Source: Lachnospiraceae bacterium
Lineage (GTDB): Bacteria > Bacillota_A > Clostridia > Lachnospirales > Lachnospiraceae
Length of the DNA: 6,564 bases
Direction of reading: 5' to 3'
Assembly: GCA_009911175.1 (NCBI GenBank)
Contig: QXWX01000170.1
Span: 1 to 6,564, forward strand
A model generated the notes under the pieces. The model was not told where the DNA came from and did no database searches. It saw only the letters and a program-made list of their open reading frames with translations. A program made the translations under genes and the position numbers. This document shows positions 1-6,564 of the stretch, piece by piece. Each line of letters starts with the position of its first letter. Position 1 is the first letter of the stretch.

Positions 1-318
1 ATTAGTTGCCTTACTGTAAATATCATCCTTTATTCTCTTAGATATCTTATTATTTAACCAACTCGCCAAGTAAGTTTCTCCCATACTAAGTATTGAATTT
101 CCCAAAAACAAAACGAATAGAATACTAATTGTATACAGTATTCTATCGAATGACTTTATAGTAACATAATTTATAATGTTGCCCATAAAATATATAGGAA
201 GTAAACCCATGATATTACTTAGCATAGTAAGAGTGTAAAGACCTACAAATTTACTCCTATAAGGAGTAATATAATTTTTTAGTAAATTTTGATAAGCTTT
301 TTTCTGCCATATCTTCAA
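1..318 (-). CDS. ABC exporter, N-terminal part (runs off left edge)
   Basis: This is the first 106 codons of a membrane protein read leftwards, open to the window edge with no stop. The start is a TTG at 318-316, preceded by AAAGAGGTG (326-334) with a 7-nt gap. The ATG two codons inside is in another frame and closes quickly. The protein has a basic amphipathic start (KIWQKKAYQNLLKNY, then TPYRSK), a hydrophobic helix at about residues 24-44 and a second at about 60-79. It ends in the charged stretch NNKISKRIKDDIYSKAT. This layout, with two long helices and a cytoplasmic extension bearing a coupling-helix-like segment, is typical of the transmembrane domain of type I ABC exporters (permease fused to ATPase). 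The ATPase half would lie outside the window. It is the last visible gene after the two Cys-rich precursors on the same strand, so export of the modified peptide is the likely role. No peptidase C39 domain is seen at the N-terminus, so leader removal is probably done elsewhere. Family is fairly sure; substrate is inferred. Confidence 0.72.
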   Translation of the reverse strand, partial: MKIWQKKAYQNLLKNYITPYRSKFVGLYTLTMLSNIMGLLPIYFMGNIINYVTIKSFDRILYTISILFVLFLGNSILSMGETYLASWLNNKISKRIKDDIYSKATN

Positions 319-325
319 CTATATA

Positions 326-334
326 CACCTCTTT
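326..334 (-). promoter_or_regulatory. ribosome binding site fixing the TTG start
   Basis: On the minus strand the sequence is AAAGAGGTG, 7 nt before the TTG at 318. It is the only purine-rich Shine-Dalgarno match near the start of the exporter frame. It is what supports initiation at TTG rather than at a later in-frame ATG (the first is about residue 32, inside the first membrane helix). Confidence 0.6.
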
Positions 335-345
335 CAATCATGTAA

Positions 346-380
346 GAGAGGGATATAAAGATATATCCCCTCTCATTTTT
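346..380 (+). terminator. terminator-like hairpin in front of the exporter gene
   Basis: GAGAGGG-ATATA (346-357) pairs with TATAT-CCCCTCTC (362-374) over 12 bp with a single bulged C, around the loop AAGA. On the plus strand it is followed by ATTTTT (375-380), so it resembles an intrinsic terminator for plus-strand transcripts such as any from the IS630 remnant. On the minus strand the same hairpin lies in the leader between the precursor genes and the exporter and lacks a good U-run. There it could act as an RNA-stabilising or read-through-limiting structure. Structure is clear; function is inferred. Confidence 0.5.
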
Positions 381-518
381 AGATTATGAATATGACTTTA
401 ACATATGTAAACCTTATACTTTACTAGTACAGCATTTCACCATTTTTTAAGTAACATTACTGTATTCAAAACTTCCCATATATGACATAATGAAAAGAAA
501 ATACAACTGAGACTATAT
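381..518. other. non-coding stretch, no gene seen
   Basis: About 140 AT-rich bases lie between the hairpin and the IS630 remnant. On the minus strand the longest ATG frame is 13 codons without a convincing ribosome site. No additional Cys-rich precursor is present. No clear transposon inverted repeat could be recognised at the edge of the IS630 remnant. Confidence 0.4.
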
Positions 519-755
519 ATGCCATTTATTGCTGTTCCCGTAAAAATACCTGAAGCCATCCAGCCTGTCCTATTTAAATTTGCCAAAAGCAAGGCTTTTC
601 CAACCCGTCAGGTGCAGCGTGCCAAGATTATCCTGCTTGCCACAAACGGACTTGATATTATGCAGATATCCAAACAGATAGGTCTCGGGCAAGATTCAGT
701 CAGTTCCTTCCTGAATGATGCCCCACGCCCTGAGCAGCCTCCACATTATTCTGAC
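519..755 (+). pseudogene. IS630-type transposase remnant (N-terminal fragment)
   Basis: The plus-strand frame from the ATG at 519 encodes about 79 residues resembling the N-terminus of IS630/Tc1-mariner-group transposases. The stretch TRQVQRAKIILLATNGL (29-45) followed by IMQISKQIGLGQDSVSS (47-63) is the usual helix-turn-helix. The downstream motif LNDAPRPEQPPHYSD (65-79) normally follows only after several dozen more residues, so an internal deletion has joined the two pieces. After about 755 similarity stops. The frame continues only into antisense of the neighbouring Cys-rich precursor gene, ending at 890. The whole DDE catalytic domain is missing, so it cannot be active. It lies antisense to the RiPP cluster, between the precursors and the exporter, and has higher GC than its surroundings, as expected for imported DNA. 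Confidence 0.75.
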
Positions 756-773
756 AGCAAATCATCAATTTAC

Positions 774-917
774 TTAATCATCTGGTTTCATTGTTGTACT
801 ATTACCTACGCAACCCTGACAGCTTGTACACTGTCCTTTACAACCAGTACATCCTCCCTGGCATGGGCACCATCTAGGCTGTATGGTTGAAGAATATCCC
901 ATTGTTGATAATTTCAT
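774..917 (-). CDS. Cys-rich RiPP precursor peptide A (CXXX-type)
   Basis: This 47-residue peptide starts at the ATG at 917 and stops at TAA (774-776). A strong AGGAGGG-like ribosome site (GGAGGG at 925-930) lies 7 nt upstream. The N-terminus MKLSTMGYSSTIQPR acts as the presumed leader. It is followed by WCPCQG and a core with cysteines at 17, 19, 23, 26, 30, 33 and 36, separated mostly by Gly, Gln, Thr and Ser. The tail NSTTMKPDD is uncharged to acidic and cysteine-free. It aligns without gaps over the first 21 residues with the precursor encoded just upstream (946-1104), which establishes it as a real gene despite its small size. Its spacing mixes CX3C and CX2C, unlike the more regular CXXX repeat of its partner. 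It is the last gene before the IS630 remnant. Expected role: substrate of the radical SAM fusion protein, giving a crosslinked peptide. Final product and activity are unknown. Confidence 0.82.
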   Translation of the reverse strand: MKLSTMGYSSTIQPRWCPCQGGCTGCKGQCTSCQGCVGNSTTMKPDD

Positions 918-924
918 TTTACAT

Positions 925-930
925 CCCTCC
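925..930 (-). promoter_or_regulatory. strong ribosome binding site of precursor A
   Basis: GGAGGG on the minus strand lies 7 nt before the ATG at 917, within a 28-nt gap after the stop of precursor B. No promoter was seen in that gap, so both precursors are probably on one transcript. Confidence 0.6.
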
Positions 931-945
931 TATGTATATAGAATA

Positions 946-1104
946 CTAAATTCCTGGATGACTAAGAACTTTACTATCACAGTAGCCAGAACAAGTTCCT
1001 CGGCACCCATGACATGTTTTTGCACAAGTAAAACCACACGTTCCTTGACATGGACACCATCTAGGTTCTACCGTAGCAGAATTCATTATTGAACTTAACT
1101 GCAT
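946..1104 (-). CDS. Cys-rich RiPP precursor peptide B (CXXX repeat)
   Basis: This 52-residue peptide starts at the ATG at 1104 and ends at TAG (946-948). AAAGGAG at 1114-1120 lies 9 nt ahead of this ATG and selects it over an in-frame ATG at 1155 that has no ribosome site. The leader MQLSSIMNSATVEPR is followed by WCPCQGT. Eight cysteines lie at 17, 19, 23, 27, 31, 34, 38 and 42. From C19 on the spacing is X3, X3, X3, X2, X3, X3, which is the CXXX repeat that gives this RiPP group its name. The tail is DSKVLSHPGI. Residues 1-21 match precursor A position for position (pattern M[KQ]LS[ST] then PRWCPCQG). The gene follows the accessory protein gene by 66 nt. Known of related systems: radical SAM/SPASM enzymes link cysteine sulfur to residues between cysteines (sactipeptide or ranthipeptide chemistry). 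Here this is inferred. Confidence 0.85.
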   Translation of the reverse strand: MQLSSIMNSATVEPRWCPCQGTCGFTCAKTCHGCRGTCSGYCDSKVLSHPGI

Positions 1105-1170
1105 AACATTACTCTCCTTTCTATAAAAGTAATTAAAGGTATCAAGTGTTATCACTTCATATCCATAATC

Positions 1171-1467
1171 TCAAGCTTGTTGATTTTCCATGTAATGAAT
1201 ACTCCTATCACTAAAGTCAAGCATGTAGTTTTCTCCTTTTTCTGGATCAAGCTGATACTTTTTAATAATTTCATTCCATGCCGCACGATATATAGTCATG
1301 CTAGCTTTTAAATCCTTTTTAATTTGTCCATACATTTTCGAGTTTTTACAATAAAGTTCATTATCAGCTGCTAATGTTTTTGTCAATACTTTAAGCGAAT
1401 TAATTTCTTCTATAATATCCATCATTTTTTCATTTTCTTTTTTCGTTATCACTGCCACCGTATTCAT
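1171..1467 (-). CDS. CXXX repeat peptide modification system protein
   Basis: This is a 98-residue cytoplasmic protein with no membrane segment. The ATG at 1467 is chosen because GGAGGG sits 4 nt upstream. Longer in-frame starts (1533, 1479) would overlap the maturase gene or the ribosome site itself. The N-terminus MNTVAVITKKENEKMMDIIEE is followed by a long charged helical, possibly coiled-coil, stretch to about residue 70 (EINSLKVLTKTLAADNELY, then KMYGQIKKDLKASMTIYRAAW). A short C-terminal segment ends in DRSIHYMENQQA. Size, the opening 'V-I-TKKE' pattern and the position between the radical SAM gene and Cys-rich precursors fit my recollection of the small family annotated as CXXX repeat peptide modification system protein. 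Its biochemical role is not established; leader-peptide binding or enzyme scaffolding is plausible. The gene begins 14 nt after the maturase stop, so the two are co-transcribed and possibly translationally coupled. Confidence 0.68.
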   Translation of the reverse strand: MNTVAVITKKENEKMMDIIEEINSLKVLTKTLAADNELYCKNSKMYGQIKKDLKASMTIYRAAWNEIIKKYQLDPEKGENYMLDFSDRSIHYMENQQA

Positions 1468-1481
1468 ATTTCCCTCCATTT

Positions 1482-3644
1482 TTAACAATAATGCCTTGCA
1501 TATGGATTGCATACTAATTCTTCTATAACACATTCTATTGGATCAGAGTAATCAATCACTGGAATTTCGATATCTGCTCCATACTCGATTTTTTCTTTAT
1601 GTAAAATCTGTAACAATTTCATAGATGCGTTTCTTTCAATATGGCTTTTAATACATTGAGCGGAGCCTGGAGTATTAAATTCCCTGGTTTTTTTTCTGTT
1701 TAATAAAACACATCTGTTACATTGGTAAGCATCACAGCGTTTGCATAATGGTGAATTAGATAAACTTAACATATCAGCCAACTTATATTTTGTAATTCCC
1801 GTTTCAATATCTCCTATATAATCTTCTGGAGAATTGAAATAAAATGCCGGACATATATATAACTTTCCATTGGGTGCTAATGCATAGTTATGGACTCCAC
1901 AATTGCAATTATTCATTTCATCTAAGAACAAACGATCAGTCAATATATTTATTTCCCGAAATTCTTTTCGTTTAAGATATGAAACTATCTCTGCTATCAT
2001 TAACTCCAGTTGTTCTTTATAAATAGTAGAAAATCTTCTCTGAAATTCAAATTTGAAAATTATATTAATTCTTTGACATATAGGCAGCAATTTCGTAACC
2101 ATATCAGCTAATACCGGGAAAGACTCTTCGTGAATATTTAAAAGAACAATTTCATTTCCCTTAAATTCGGTAACTTCTCTCGAATCTATAACAACATACT
2201 TATCATAATTTGAATATGGCAATTTTATATCATTATGACACAATTCAATTCTTGATATAGTAGAAAATCTATCTAAATCTATTATATTGTCTTGAGATTT
2301 TGAGTTTAAAATAACCGGCTTATAAAAATTTTTTTCGCAAAACTCTAAGCCACTTTTAGCAACTTCTTCACTCATAACAGCACCTACAGTACTATTTGAT
2401 GAATAATCGCAACACTCTACTGCATCATCACTCATAATAAAATACAAGTGTTTCTTATTCCGCAAAGGAGATTTTCTATCGATCCCTTTTTCTCTTCTTA
2501 ACCTATCCCAATAATAATTATTAGCCCGAACTCTTGCTTTATGCATCTTACAAATATATGTTGCTCTGGCATAAATTGTATCCTCCTCAGTACAATCATA
2601 ATTGCATCCTTGACACCAAGCGCAACCAGATGCGATTTCACAATTCAAACATTCATCATTACTAATTGCTTTTGTAGATAAAGTCAAAAACGGCCTTATC
2701 TTATCGTAATCAATTCCTGTATCAATATCGCCAATAGGAATTCCCTGTTTTTCACAAAGTGTAAAATCAGAAAAACGCAAACACGGATAAAAATTACCTT
2801 GTGCATCAATTGCTAACATTCTTCCTGTACCACAATAATTAGAATTAATTATTGTCCGATCATTTGGCATGCCAATCATGTCATCAAATAGTGTACAGTT
2901 AACTTTATCCCACAACTCGAACTCAATAATATAGTCAGCCAAATTACGCATCTGCTGTTCAAAGATTTTATCGTCTCCTTCTTTCCATACATCTTCAAAT
3001 ACAACATTAGCTGGAATTATAGAAAGTCCATTCTCCCATAAATGCACGATGCTTTCTTTCAAATATATCAAATCTTCACTTCCAAAAGTTACTTTTGTGG
3101 TTGAATTTGGAAACTCTTGTAACCATAATGGCAAATTTTTATAAACATCATCATATGAACCCTTACCATTTTGATAGATCCTATGCATATCATGCTTCCG
3201 TTTAGTTCCATCAATAGTAATTCCTATATCCAATTTACCTTTATTTTTTTTTATAAATCTTTGAACATCTGATCTATCATATAATGTTCCATTAGTTCCT
3301 ATATGAATCCGATAATTTTTTGACCATTTATGCCCCAACTTATACGTCTTAATTTTAATGTAGTCCATGATACGATCGATTAAGTCAATTTCTAACAATG
3401 GTTCACCACCAATAAAATCCCATAATACAGCTTCTGCATTAAACATTTGGGGATTATCCAATAAATAATCGATGGCTTTCTTGGCCACATCAAACGACAT
3501 TCTATGCTTTTCATTTTTATGAACCTCATAGCAATAAGAACATCTCAAATTACAATCTTCTGTTACAATAAAGGTAACTTCATAAGCCTTTCCCTCTTTC
3601 CATTGGCTTATCCCTGAACCCATTAAGTAATTACCATTACTCAT
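1482..3644 (-). CDS. radical SAM/SPASM peptide maturase fused to CXXX repeat peptide maturase
   Basis: This 720-residue cytoplasmic iron-sulfur enzyme starts at the ATG at 3644, with GGAGG at 3656-3660. Residues 18-385 form a complete radical SAM/SPASM protein. The SAM-cluster motif is CX3CX2C (C31, C35, C38) in VTEDCNLRCSYCYE, followed by GGEP at 79-82 and the motif GITIDGTKRKHD at 141-152. The SPASM region has C271, GX4C ending at C288, then C332, C335, C341, C344, C347, C351 and C365. It closes with the typical CKMHKARVRANNYYWDRL (365-382). This half closely resembles the 'radical SAM peptide maturase, CXXX-repeat target family'. From about 397 a second unit begins (KKHLYFIMSDDAVECCDY). 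It lacks CX3CX2C but has its own SPASM-like cysteines: C580, C582, GX4C at C598, C634, C637, C642, C645 and C664. It resembles the normally separate 'CXXX repeat peptide maturase'. Expected job: installing thioether crosslinks in the two precursors encoded downstream. Family assignment is strong; exact chemistry is inferred. Confidence 0.87.
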   Translation of the reverse strand: MSNGNYLMGSGISQWKEGKAYEVTFIVTEDCNLRCSYCYEVHKNEKHRMSFDVAKKAIDYLLDNPQMFNAEAVLWDFIGGEPLLEIDLIDRIMDYIKIKTYKLGHKWSKNYRIHIGTNGTLYDRSDVQRFIKKNKGKLDIGITIDGTKRKHDMHRIYQNGKGSYDDVYKNLPLWLQEFPNSTTKVTFGSEDLIYLKESIVHLWENGLSIIPANVVFEDVWKEGDDKIFEQQMRNLADYIIEFELWDKVNCTLFDDMIGMPNDRTIINSNYCGTGRMLAIDAQGNFYPCLRFSDFTLCEKQGIPIGDIDTGIDYDKIRPFLTLSTKAISNDECLNCEIASGCAWCQGCNYDCTEEDTIYARATYICKMHKARVRANNYYWDRLRREKGIDRKSPLRNKKHLYFIMSDDAVECCDYSSNSTVGAVMSEEVAKSGLEFCEKNFYKPVILNSKSQDNIIDLDRFSTISRIELCHNDIKLPYSNYDKYVVIDSREVTEFKGNEIVLLNIHEESFPVLADMVTKLLPICQRINIIFKFEFQRRFSTIYKEQLELMIAEIVSYLKRKEFREINILTDRLFLDEMNNCNCGVHNYALAPNGKLYICPAFYFNSPEDYIGDIETGITKYKLADMLSLSNSPLCKRCDAYQCNRCVLLNRKKTREFNTPGSAQCIKSHIERNASMKLLQILHKEKIEYGADIEIPVIDYSDPIECVIEELVCNPYARHYC

Positions 3645-4042
3645 TATTCAACTTTCCTCCTACCTAAGTATATATCTTCTGGGGATCTTTAACCCTTCCA
3701 TTACTGCTTGGTGCCACATGCTCAGTGATTTTTTCTGTATGGTTTCTGAACTTCTTATGTTATTGGAGCGATGGGAATCACAATCGTACGGCTTGACCAC
3801 CGGCTCTGCCGGTGGTTTGAGTGAACCCCTCCGGGGCATTTTTCGGTATCGCTTATAGGCGGTGTCTAAGCAACCCCTTTTTCGATGCTGCCTATCAGCA
3901 GTATCTTATTAACCTCTGGTACTTGGCTGTCTCTTAAAAGAGGCTCTTTATCCTTCTATTCTACTGCACTCTTCCTGCTCTTCGATGTACTTTTTATTTC
4001 TTTTCTTGCACGATATTCAATTGTCAAAATTCAGGTAAAACC
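3645..4042. other. roughly 400-bp spacer, probable mobile-element debris
   Basis: No convincing gene is found on either strand. Open frames are short, lack ribosome sites, and their translations match no family I recognise. GC content rises sharply in 3770-3900 compared with the flanks. The stretch holds a perfect 9-bp hairpin (3796-3816), a smaller CCCC-TCC-GGGG hairpin (3826-3836) followed by ATTTTT, and a 6-bp inverted pair ATAGGC / GCCTAT around 3855-3895. Such clustered GC-rich palindromes are common at the ends of IS200/IS605-type or other insertion sequences, but no transposase piece is recognisable. No convincing sigma-A promoter for the maturase gene was found here. The nearest weak candidate is TTAAAG about 14 nt from TATACT, around 3665-3690 on the minus strand. 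Confidence 0.45.
3796..3816. repeat. perfect 9-bp GC-rich hairpin
   Basis: ACCACCGGC (3796-3804), loop TCT, GCCGGTGGT (3808-3816). It is not followed by a T-run on either strand, so it is not an obvious terminator. Its strength and setting suggest a palindrome of the kind found at IS200/IS605 ends or in dispersed REP-like elements. It lies about 150 nt upstream of the maturase start codon. Confidence 0.6.
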
Positions 4043-4639
4043 TCATTCATTGAGATTCCGAGAAATTATATAGTGATTTTTGCAAATCCCTACAAACATC
4101 ATAAAACATAATACTATATGCGAATAAATTATCCCCCAATAAATACATTCAACTTTTAATAATAATCCAAAAAGCATAATCATTATTTGAAGTACAAGCA
4201 AAATAGTTGTTATTTTACGGTATTTTCTCTTCTCAGTTTTGCTTAAACGTTTGTTTTTTGAATCAACCGGAGCCAAACCACAAATACTTATCTGTAAAAT
4301 AAGTAAAAATATATATCCTGCTTGAAAAACAAACATATTTATGTTCATTTTATTTAACATACAGAGAAAGATGATTAATATTGCTGAAACTATTCCACAC
4401 AAATATCCTTTATCCGCATGATACCCTCCTGAATAACGTCTTAGTGGAATATATGAACATAAGAAACATACAACCAATTGAATTTCTCCAAAAAAGCAAC
4501 CTATTATAATGGCAACTAATAAATTGATACATTCTTCAAAAAAAATCAAATACGCATATTGATATATATCTTTTTCCTGTTCACATATGTATTTACTTTT
4601 TATTTGATATTCCAAAACTTTACTTACTAATGAATTCAT
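4043..4639 (-). CDS. agrB: AgrB-like pheromone-processing membrane protease
   Basis: This 198-residue integral membrane protein matches the usual AgrB length. It cleaves the C-terminal tail of AgrD and forms the thiolactone ring. The signature LRRYSGGYHADKGYLC (66-81) contains the catalytic His74 and Cys81, seven positions apart as for H77/C84 of the Staphylococcus aureus enzyme. The second family motif, APVDSKNKRLSKTEKRKYRK, starts at 123. Membrane segments lie at about 38-64, 80-96, 101-121, 144-162 and 166-186. The start at 4639 lies 16 nt after the agrD stop and has a weak AAGGAAAAGAG ribosome site, suggesting translation partly coupled to agrD. The gene ends in TGA, with no clear terminator before the following spacer, so read-through towards the maturase gene is possible. 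All key residues are intact, so it is probably functional. Confidence 0.93.
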   Translation of the reverse strand: MNSLVSKVLEYQIKSKYICEQEKDIYQYAYLIFFEECINLLVAIIIGCFFGEIQLVVCFLCSYIPLRRYSGGYHADKGYLCGIVSAILIIFLCMLNKMNINMFVFQAGYIFLLILQISICGLAPVDSKNKRLSKTEKRKYRKITTILLVLQIMIMLFGLLLKVECIYWGIIYSHIVLCFMMFVGICKNHYIISRNLNE

Positions 4640-4655
4640 CTACATTCTCTTTTCC

Positions 4656-4820
4656 TTATTTCCTCTGAAACTTTTTCCTTTTATAAAATTCTTCAGGAAC
4701 TTTTGGCTGGTGGTGCACCCATACACAAGTACTCTCTACAGATATTATAGCCAGAAATAGCGCCAAAGCATTAACCATTCTCCAAATTTTTGTTGTCAAT
4801 AATCTTTTAATTCTTTTCAT
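4656..4820 (-). CDS. agrD: AgrD-like cyclic lactone autoinducer precursor
   Basis: This 54-residue peptide has its ATG at 4820, with AAAGGAG (4830-4836) 9 nt upstream. The basic N-terminus MKRIKRLLTTKIWR is followed by a hydrophobic helix (VNALALFLAIISV, 16-28) that anchors the precursor at the membrane. The signal region is ESTCVWVH, then the processed tail HQPKVPEEFYKRKKFQRK. The QPK-x-PEE block is the conserved recognition tail of clostridial AgrD. By alignment of Cys32 and V41-P42 with Cys28 and V37-P38 of S. aureus AgrD, AgrB should cut after His36. That gives a five-residue thiolactone ring C32-V-W-V-H36 with a short Ser-Thr exocyclic tail. It is followed directly by agrB, its processing enzyme. 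It is too short for most automatic callers. Assignment is confident; the exact mature ends are inferred. Confidence 0.9.
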   Translation of the reverse strand: MKRIKRLLTTKIWRMVNALALFLAIISVESTCVWVHHQPKVPEEFYKRKKFQRK

Positions 4821-4861
4821 CAATACATTCTCCTTTCACATGTGCTAAAATTATTATATAC

Positions 4862-4890
4862 TTTATACGACAAAATAATTTATTTTTCAA
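4862..4890 (-). promoter_or_regulatory. sigma-A-type promoter for agrDB
   Basis: On the minus strand TTGAAA (4890-4885) and TATAAA (4867-4862) are separated by exactly 17 nt. This gives a predicted start near 4855 and a leader of about 35 nt before the agrD start codon. It lies just after the terminator that ends the kinase transcript, so agrD-agrB form their own transcription unit. The fit to consensus is good (TTGAAA versus TTGACA, TATAAA versus TATAAT). Confidence 0.72.
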
Positions 4891-4892
4891 TG

Positions 4893-4913
4893 CATTTACT
4901 AAAATGACATTTA
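4893..4913 (-). promoter_or_regulatory. possible LytTR/AgrA-type operator (paired TAAATG)
   Basis: Two TAAATG hexamers (4913-4908 and 4898-4893) lie 15 nt apart start to start, abutting the -35 box of the agrDB promoter. The first is part of the palindrome AAATG-T-CATTT (4912-4902). Paired direct repeats immediately upstream of -35 are where LytTR-type regulators such as AgrA usually bind. The site does not match the staphylococcal consensus, so this is a positional argument only. AT-rich DNA produces such repeats by chance. Confidence 0.35.
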
Positions 4914-4930
4914 AATCGGCAAAATATGCA

Positions 4931-4969
4931 AAAAAAAGATTGTTGTAATGTATTGAGTAACAACAATCT
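4931..4969 (-). terminator. rho-independent terminator of the kinase transcript
   Basis: On the minus strand AGATTGTTGT (4969-4960) pairs perfectly over 10 bp with ACAACAATCT (4946-4937) around a 13-nt loop. It is followed at once by six T residues (4936-4931). It ends transcription of the regulator/kinase unit before the agrDB promoter. The upstream arm overlaps the direct repeat bordering the small inserted element, which has pushed the terminator away from the kinase stop codon. Confidence 0.8.
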
Positions 4970-5071
4970 ATGATAAGCAGAAATGAACCACCCCGCCGCA
5001 AGCAGCGGGGTATCCTATCTTAGCATCTTTTTTCAGAACGACGCATGCGGCGGGGAATTAACCCTATGATA
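4968..5071. mobile_element. 88-bp GC-rich hairpin element with 8-bp flanking repeats (MITE-like)
   Basis: The 8-mer CTATGATA occurs at 4968-4975 and again at 5064-5071, bracketing 88 bp of clearly higher GC. Inside, CCCCGCCGCA (4991-5000) can pair perfectly with TGCGGCGGGG (5046-5055), making a long hairpin. Alternatively ACCCCGC (4990-4996) pairs with GCGGGGT (5005-5011) in a short local hairpin. The two are mutually exclusive. Removing the element plus one repeat would leave the kinase stop codon directly in front of its terminator stem. That makes a recent insertion with target duplication the simplest reading. No coding capacity is present; the 64-codon minus frame through it is fortuitous. 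I recall similar CCCCGC-rich hairpins as dispersed repeats in Clostridia. The transposase family that would move it is unknown. Confidence 0.6.
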
Positions 5072-5073
5072 GA

Positions 5074-6372
5074 TTAAAAAATTGTAAATACTATCGAAAC
5101 TGTAAAAAGATTTTTCTCAGTATTTATCTGTAAATATCCTCCATACTTCTCTATACATTTCCTTACATTTCGTATTCCCATTCCATGTTTTCCTGGTTCA
5201 TCTTTTGTAGAATAAAAAATTTCACCATATCGTTTTAACACTCCAGTATATTTATTCTCTATTCGCAGCATTAAAAAATGTCCTTTTTGAGTAGTAAAAA
5301 TATTAATATCAATAAAACTATCTTTTTCTTTTTTTGATGCTTCAATAGCATTATCTATAATATTTCCCATAATGATGATAATATCAATATCTTGTAAGAA
5401 ATTCAAATTAATACCAGGCTCAACATTTGCACTAAATCTAATACTATTATTATTTGCTTCTCTCTTTTTTTCACATAGTATTGTATTTAATATTTTATTT
5501 CTACAGAAAAAATCATTTTCCATTTCTCCAATTCGTATTTTCATATTCTGAATCATAGATGTTATCTCTTTATTTTGTTCCTGAATTGCTAAATTTCCTA
5601 TAGTTTTTAATAGAAAATTCAAATCATGCATATAATATGAATGTTGTATATTAACTGCTTCCATTCTATCATAATACTTTTTCTCCATATCTGTTTTTAA
5701 GGACATCATTTCAAGTTTTTGCTTTTTCTTATCTAATAAGAAAACATAATCATATATCAAAAAAATCACGATATTGGAAAGTAATAACAAAGTACATCCT
5801 ATTATTAATATTACCTCATTTATTCCAGATATCTTCATCATCCATCCCGAATATAGTAACGCACTGTATAACCAAAAAGTTGCAATCGGCAAAATCAAGG
5901 AATATATCAGCAACTTATTATCCATACCATATTCTTCTTTATTTAGGTGCTTTTTGGTAACAAACAAAATGATAAAAGTCATTAGCTTTTCTAGGCAAAT
6001 GATTATCAATTTTAATATATCCATTTGAGAATACCAACAATATTGCTCACCTAAGATAAGGGATAGTGCAAACTCAAAAATAATTTCTACTCCTGCAAAA
6101 ACTGTATAAAATACAATAAAGCAAAAGAGCTTTTCTTTTATCAACCCGTCAAATAATATGAATGAAAATATAAGATAAACTATAAAGTTTGAAAATAAAT
6201 TTAATATTGAATTGTTAAATGAATTAATATAAATAATCATTATAACAATTGCAAAATATATAACAATAGTATATAAAAACCTTTTTGATTTTCTTTTCAA
6301 TATTTCTTTAAAAAAAGTATCAAATATTATAATTTCAAAAATACAAGTTAATAAATTCATAACATTTTCCAT
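5074..6372 (-). CDS. AgrC-like sensor histidine kinase (GHKL ATPase domain)
   Basis: This membrane sensor kinase is 432 residues from the preferred ATG at 6372. That ATG lies 1 nt after the response-regulator stop and has AGAAGGA upstream. A TTG start at 6405 would add 11 residues but lacks a ribosome site and overlaps the regulator gene by 32 nt. The first about 210 residues hold six or seven hydrophobic helices, as in AgrC pheromone receptors. A coiled linker follows (LDKKKQKLEMMSLKTDMEKK). The phospho-acceptor box is YYMHDLNFLLKTI with His249. The ATPase domain carries an N-box NIIDNAIEAS (N337, D340, N341) and a G-box GKHGMGIRNV (G397, G399), ending in a typical SIVFTIF strand. All catalytic motifs are intact. 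It is expected to bind the AgrD-derived peptide and phosphorylate the LytTR regulator encoded just upstream. Gene order regulator-kinase-agrD-agrB differs from staphylococcal agrBDCA. Confidence 0.85.
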   Translation of the reverse strand: MENVMNLLTCIFEIIIFDTFFKEILKRKSKRFLYTIVIYFAIVIMIIYINSFNNSILNLFSNFIVYLIFSFILFDGLIKEKLFCFIVFYTVFAGVEIIFEFALSLILGEQYCWYSQMDILKLIIICLEKLMTFIILFVTKKHLNKEEYGMDNKLLIYSLILPIATFWLYSALLYSGWMMKISGINEVILIIGCTLLLLSNIVIFLIYDYVFLLDKKKQKLEMMSLKTDMEKKYYDRMEAVNIQHSYYMHDLNFLLKTIGNLAIQEQNKEITSMIQNMKIRIGEMENDFFCRNKILNTILCEKKREANNNSIRFSANVEPGINLNFLQDIDIIIIMGNIIDNAIEASKKEKDSFIDINIFTTQKGHFLMLRIENKYTGVLKRYGEIFYSTKDEPGKHGMGIRNVRKCIEKYGGYLQINTEKNLFTVSIVFTIF

Positions 6373-6373
6373 A

Positions 6374-6564
6374 TTATTTTCTATTCCTTCTATATTTTGC
6401 TCCAAGATATTCTGTAAATCTATTATGAAATACTTCCTTTTTAGATCTTGAAATATTTAAAGTTGTTAGATCTTCTAAAGTAATAACATTATCCGTAGTT
6501 CCCGCTACATAATTCCCTCTACACGCCCTCAAGACAATCTGATAACAGCATAAAGCCCTTTATT
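6374..6564 (-). pseudogene. LytTR-type response regulator, 3' end, apparently interrupted
   Basis: The minus frame ending in TAA at 6374-6376 encodes 61 residues back to a TAA stop at 6560-6562. The last about 45 residues (NVITLEDLTTLNISRSKKEV, then FHNRFTEYLG and a basic tail) match the C-terminal beta-strands and the conserved 'ISRSxKKE' end of LytTR DNA-binding domains. This is the output domain of AgrA-type regulators. The gene stops 1 nt before the kinase ATG, the normal regulator-kinase arrangement. However, the stop at 6560-6562 falls inside what should still be the LytTR domain. The region around LRACRGNYVAGTTD also looks shortened relative to the family. Another frame reading KGLYAVIRLS near the edge looks LytTR-like, suggesting a frameshift around 6530-6560. 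It could also be a genuine gene with a sequencing error; the window edge prevents a decision. Confidence 0.55.

Follow-up and report, generated by a model that had tools for sequence, protein, structure and literature searches.

A CXXX-repeat radical-SAM cassette of a Lachnospiraceae bacterium, with two cysteine-rich precursors that probably share one enzyme

Why should a locus with a single radical S-adenosylmethionine (SAM) enzyme carry two short cysteine-rich peptides in tandem? The question is raised by a stretch of 6,564 nucleotides from a Lachnospiraceae bacterium (assembly GCA_009911175.1, contig QXWX01000170.1, positions 1 to 6,564; hereafter the window), in which an original prediction, made from the letters alone, saw a system for ribosomally synthesized and post-translationally modified peptides (RiPPs) in which a single maturase serves two precursors, A and B. 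The prediction is supported, in that the maturase and its accessory protein exceed the curated cut-offs of NCBI families of the CXXX-repeat peptide system (for the maturase, TIGR04115 with 531.6 bits against 350 and TIGR04119 with 242 against 150; for the accessory protein, TIGR04116, Table 1) and both peptides have homologues. We conclude that the locus is probably a CXXX-repeat radical-SAM RiPP cassette in which two precursors rely on one enzyme and give rise to two fixed, exported products. Most likely the enzyme makes two peptides with non-alpha thioethers, which the adjacent ATP-binding cassette (ABC) transporter exports.

Both short open reading frames were found where they had been claimed to be, on the minus strand, in the same orientation as the genes for the maturase and the accessory protein. 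Each has the strong ribosome-binding site of its own that had been attributed to it: AGGAGGG seven nucleotides before the ATG of A and AAGGAGAG seven nucleotides before that of B. The gap-free alignment of residues 1-21 likewise holds, and 13 of the 21 positions agree, 7 among the first 15 and all 8 in PRWCPCQG; the best ungapped local BLOSUM62 score of A against B, 92, was reached by none of 5000 shuffles of B, whose maximum was 59. At the DNA level 43 of the 63 bases of the shared region are identical, and within the block the C17, C19 and Q20 codons of A are separated from those of B by synonymous changes only, a pattern that suggests selection rather than a very recent copy. The frame of B continues upstream without a stop as far as a GTG at 1155, which would give a form of 69 residues; because of where the ribosome-binding site lies, we favor the start at 1104. 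Upstream extensions like that of B (1105-1155) occur in P0121, P0125 and P0126 as well, and perhaps represent merely a conserved ribosome-site region.

Homologues were collected at E up to 1 for B and up to 10 for A (Table 1), and 11 sequences were aligned: A, B, three homologues of A and six of B. P0128, a frame-changed variant, and P0121, which is the B of the window in its 69-residue form with one change, were left out. The claim that A and B diverge fully after the shared block does not survive this comparison, since M1, W16, C17, P18, C19, Q20, G21, C23, C26, C30 and C33 are invariant in all 11 sequences. The related picture of a conserved leader followed by a diversified core is right in its first half, the leader being common to A and B; each core, however, is conserved within its own family rather than hypervariable, and the two therefore look like two fixed products. 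Cysteine spacers, computed for all four A-type and for three of the seven B-type sequences, run 1,3,2,3,2,2 in each of the former and 1,3,3,3,2,3,3 in each of the latter, and in the remaining four B-type sequences the alignment of the core has no gaps. As judged from their sequences, A-type and B-type peptides are two separate, stable families with irregular cysteine spacing. P0128 follows B through CPCQGT and then changes frame, as from a single 31-base deletion, on one contig of 4717 bases; it is either a real variant or an assembly error.

The homologues of A and B appear to adjoin each other and related maturases, to judge by coinciding sizes of the longest contigs: 298619 bases for both P0125 (B) and P0130 (A), 8939 for both P0131 (A) and P0005 (a maturase, 70%), and 3598 for both P0126 (B) and P0007 (a maturase, 77%). 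To this extent the expectation that each peptide would have homologues beside related maturases is supported.

The maturase joins, in one chain, a CteB-like radical-SAM/SPASM enzyme and a second, presumably inactive copy of that enzyme, which has retained a full second set of SPASM cysteines. There is one radical-SAM gene in the window and one CX3CX2C motif. The predicted structure matches the fold of a thioether-forming enzyme; comparison of the folds revealed no counterpart of the first ~90 residues of CteB. When the C-terminal half was searched alone, no relative by sequence was found in the PDB up to E 10; the accessory protein, examined as a candidate leader binder, matched nothing of the PqqD type up to E 1, a null result that carries no weight as proof. 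In the literature searched we found no paper on tandem or inactive radical-SAM enzymes. The fusion of an enzyme to an inactive-looking copy is, in our opinion, the most interesting part of the locus, and it provides a testable idea of how a cysteine-rich substrate might be handled without a standard leader-binding domain.

How might such an enzyme process two peptides? We suggest that A and B would dock, through their common leader and WCPCQG, on the same maturase, whose CteB-like N-terminal half would place a radical on the core and join cysteine sulfurs to nearby residues. The closest relatives of that half suggest that the thioethers are most likely beta or gamma; CteB-type and freyrasin-type enzymes form gamma and beta thioethers (PMC8326336). 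For the C-terminal half, a presumably inactive duplicate with two SPASM cluster sites, the likeliest role is to hold either the leader or the cysteine-rich core, and the task of holding the substrate could be met by this half or by the accessory protein. The adjacent ABC exporter would then secrete the two fixed products, which may act as a pair. A more specific version of this scheme, which we regard as unlikely but worth stating, makes the CXXX maturase a built-in enzyme and pseudoenzyme pair, the active CteB-like domain being covalently joined to a dead copy that lacks the radical-SAM cluster and keeps the full SPASM set, with up to five [4Fe-4S] clusters in all; the dead half would replace the missing N-terminal recognition domain and present A and B by way of WCPCQG, giving a matched two-peptide product.

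The locus resembles the CXXX-repeat system (TIGR04114, 04115, 04116, 04117 and 04119) in its maturase, accessory protein, cysteine-repeat precursor and neighboring ABC exporter, and departs from it in a leader that ends in PRW, a core that opens with CPCQG, irregular spacers, and a peptide A that fits no model. Other thioether systems are more distant: against the SCIFF/CteB model TIGR03974 the maturase reaches 133.9 bits where 425 are called for, and against the PapB ranthipeptide maturase model NF047865 it reaches 220.6 of 340. In contrast to both CteB and PapB it has a second half, and the cores of A and B are without Cys-X3-Asp. The CXXX gene kit itself is a recognized but little-studied family known by computation, reportedly first described by Haft and co-workers; the WCPCQG peptide pair with its irregular spacing is new. 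A member whose two precursors, of 47 and 52 residues, share one enzyme lends itself well to testing the chemistry of the family. We found no paper on the CXXX-repeat system, an absence that is unproven because most subscription papers fell outside the search; in the portions available of the radical-SAM RiPP papers checked, "CXXX" refers to the CxxxCxxC motif or to other peptides.

To see how ordinary the arrangement is, we compared 22 loci with related maturases of 40-60% identity (L001-L003, L009-L012 and L035-L049, L039 being the Anaerococcus prevotii plasmid that is also L008). Frames of 25-200 residues on the maturase strand and within 4.5 kb were screened for at least four cysteines and a close cysteine triplet; several loci fall short of that distance, the contig or stretch stopping earlier. 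A cysteine-repeat peptide lies near the maturase in 21 of the 22, the miss being L043, a 3-kb piece of contig. Seven of the 21 (L010, L036 and L038-L042) have an Anaerococcus-type peptide with just four cysteines. Two precursors with similar leaders are present in four of the 21 (L045, L047, L048 and L049), with cores that differ, least so in L045; pairing in itself is therefore ordinary. For one peptide each in L045 and L047 an inner ATG was taken as the start, three cysteine-containing frames without a regular repeat (L003, L040, L047) were set aside as chance, and the peptide of L035, which begins almost at its first cysteine, has an uncertain start. By eye, the leaders of the relatives typically hold something like SKI or LFSxKKI, of which GYSSTIQPRW and MNSATVEPRW of the window look like a changed form, and none of the peptides listed for the other loci opens with WCPCQG. 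Two genomes hold more than one CXXX maturase locus, G1343 three (L047, L048, L049) and G1153 two (L044, L045), with paired precursors in four of the five.

This comparison also bears on the thought that A and B, which are rich in cysteine and glycine, are metal-binding peptides and that the maturase acts elsewhere or merely protects them. We consider this very improbable, given that cysteine-repeat peptides accompany this maturase in 21 of 22 loci and that its fold matches that of a thioether-forming enzyme.

Several observations weigh against our interpretation. B falls 0.3 bits short of the precursor model TIGR04114, and A gives no match to it at E 10, nor does any NCBIfam or Pfam model fit A; it is thus the enzymes that place the locus among the CXXX systems, and A counts only as a variant precursor. 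(When five homologues of B were scored with the same model, P0122 and P0124, both at 21.6 bits, and P0126, at 20.4, passed the cut-off of 20, and P0125, at 16.7, and P0127, at 19.6, fell below it.) Among the relatives, 142 of 169 cysteine spacers are three residues long (a count over 19 peptides, which represent 15 of the 21 loci; L009 was left out, as were five loci whose peptides nearly repeat the Anaerococcus-type one), as against two of six in A and five of seven in B. Between the first and last cysteine of either peptide there is no Asp, Glu or Asn, whereas PapB uses Asp or Glu as the partner of Cys (PMC9413430); here the acceptors would have to be Thr, Ser, Gln or Lys, unless the cross-link is of another type. 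The linkage of A, B and the maturase in close relatives, moreover, is read from contig sizes, and no maturase from the 298619-base contig with both peptides (P0125, P0130) is among the 120 listed; on that contig the maturase may be broken, unannotated or elsewhere.

A second question is whether A and B together make up a single product, a two-peptide bacteriocin acting in the manner of thuricin CD. The existence of two stable families of peptides that have their first cysteine block in common, the presumed same-contig pair at 298619 bases and an exporter that adjoins A are all consistent with this idea. Thuricin CD itself also has two small cysteine-rich precursors, arranged in tandem and each preceded by a strong ribosome-binding site (PMC3132745). 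It requires two radical-SAM enzymes (PMC12093266), however, and here one gene is present, of which one half is expected to be active, in a window that ends inside the exporter gene; the cysteine pattern and maturase family also differ, and no immunity gene was recognized among the ten open reading frames of the window that were scanned. We consider the proposal possible but somewhat unlikely. PMC3132745 also names a thuricin-CD-like cluster on an A. prevotii plasmid, whose enzyme of 518 residues is not the 728-residue CXXX maturase of L008.

A third is whether A is still functional. Its three homologues end at 42-43 residues, 6-7 residues (MI...) after the last cysteine, and the A of the window carries a different tail of 11 residues beside a possible transposase remnant. 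A mobile element may thus have landed behind A and changed its tail, leaving a decaying copy, with B alone functional. The intact leader of A, its seven cysteines, their spacing and its strong ribosome-binding site argue otherwise, as do the synonymous-only differences in the shared block, and we think decay quite improbable. The original prediction placed A antisense to the tail of a transposase-remnant frame. A does overlap the plus-strand frame 519-890, over 774-890, but the transposase-like part of that frame, which may be of IS630 type, lies outside A: it consists solely of a helix-turn-helix (HTH) match over residues 30-64 that falls below the Pfam cut-off (Table 1). The possible remnant had no match in PLSDB.

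Two fixed products of one enzyme remain the interpretation we prefer. Coordinates of the cassette and its surroundings are collected in Table 1.

Table 1. Features of the window, in descending order of position
Feature	Position	Strand	Basis or remark
Incomplete gene, runs off window	6374-6532	minus	no family match
AgrC-like sensor kinase	5074-6405	minus	PF14501 83.1 bits, cut-off 22
AgrD-like peptide precursor	4656-4823	minus	TIGR04223 38.9 bits, cut-off 19
AgrB-like protein	4043-4639	minus	PF04647 123 bits, cut-off 23
Stretch between maturase and agrB, no gene recognized	3660-4042		GC-rich hairpin, arms 3796-3804 and 3808-3816 (inverted repeat)
Maturase, 720 residues	1482-3644	minus	TIGR04115 and TIGR04119
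Maturase N-terminal half, residues 1-388	3644 down to 2481	minus	radical-SAM/SPASM, expected active
Maturase C-terminal half, residues 389-720	1485-2480	minus	presumably inactive radical-SAM copy, complete second SPASM Cys set
Accessory protein (CXXX repeat peptide modification system protein), 98 residues	1171-1467	minus	TIGR04116 60.9 bits, cut-off 50
Ribosome-binding site of B, AAGGAGAG	1112-1119	minus	direct reading
Precursor B, 52 residues	946-1104	minus	open reading frame; 8 homologue clusters; TIGR04114 19.7 bits, cut-off 20
Leader of B, residues 1-16	1104 down to 1057	minus	core: 8 Cys, spacers 1,3,3,3,2,3,3
Ribosome-binding site of A, AGGAGGG	925-931	minus	direct reading
Precursor A, 47 residues	774-917	minus	open reading frame; 3 homologue clusters, 66-84% identity; no NCBIfam/Pfam match
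Leader of A, residues 1-16	917 down to 870	minus	core: 7 Cys, spacers 1,3,2,3,2,2
HTH part of possible transposase remnant, between A and exporter	519-773	plus	HTH_23 16.2 bits, cut-off 24.6
Likely ABC exporter, start only (runs off window)	1-318	minus	PF00664 23.3 bits, below cut-off 28

The likely exporter is 29-32% identical to transporters in two of the 22 related loci (L003 and L048), and no peptidase domain was found ahead of its membrane part. Promoter-like sites are in no excess in the window (22, against 26.7 in shuffles), terminator-like sites number five, against 1.5, and Rfam gave no match.

The genes for AgrB, AgrD and AgrC lie upstream on the same strand, which raises the possibility that the cassette is a quorum-controlled signal or effector unit under their command. 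There is precedent for such control in Clostridium acetobutylicum, where a LanM-like, RiPP-like enzyme is under agr control (PMC10301443). Against it, some 400 bases without a recognized gene intervene, no pairs of LytTR-type sites were found where shuffles lead one to expect 0.47, a terminator-like hairpin stands between agrC and agrD, and AgrB, AgrC and AgrD were found in none of the 22 related loci (tblastn, E 0.01). We give this idea little credence and treat the three genes as neighbors of the cassette. Of 196 genomes, 107 gave a match to AgrC, and the match ranked highest was 27% identical. The agrC-agrD interval (4989-5055) holds GC-rich inverted repeats with 13-nucleotide arms besides the terminator-like hairpin, which is on the minus strand. 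The gene-free stretch 3660-4042 gave no match in Pfam, PLSDB or the 196 genomes, a null that again proves nothing; that it is the remnant of a mobile element is a guess.

The maturase or its family was also sought in samples of genomes. With sample centers counted, it was found in 4 of 391 genomes of the class sample, 1 of 388 of the phylum sample (the center itself) and 1 of 27 in the family of G1255 (again the genome itself). The order of G120 contributed 12 of 219 and the family of G245 contributed 5 of 11; four families centered on AgrC matches gave 0 of 296, 0 of 70, 0 of 38 and 0 of 22. A search of genome contigs gave three loci at 43-45%. The closest maturase among the genomes examined, 59% identical, is cut by the end of contig 365 of G1255 (L043), a 3.2-kb contig on which IS3-like transposase frames are also visible by eye.

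A phage or plasmid origin was considered and set aside. The DNA of the window hits one plasmid record, from A. prevotii (66% over part of the maturase), and one in the phage collection, a short fecal scaffold (71%, in two pieces). The maturase protein matches one plasmid record, at 46%, and 68 phage records, one of which covers most of it (44%), the remainder listed being weaker radical-SAM matches over about half; it had no match among viral contigs, and B had none in PLSDB. The pattern W-C-P-C-Q-G, free codon, Cys, sought in DNA, occurs in three viral stretches, none of them a cysteine-repeat peptide. L009 (MT837480.1, 2222-6270), a fecal scaffold labeled as phage, carries a split CXXX maturase and a precursor of 174 residues with 32 cysteines and a twin-arginine-like start; by eye, tatA- and tatC-like frames adjoin them.
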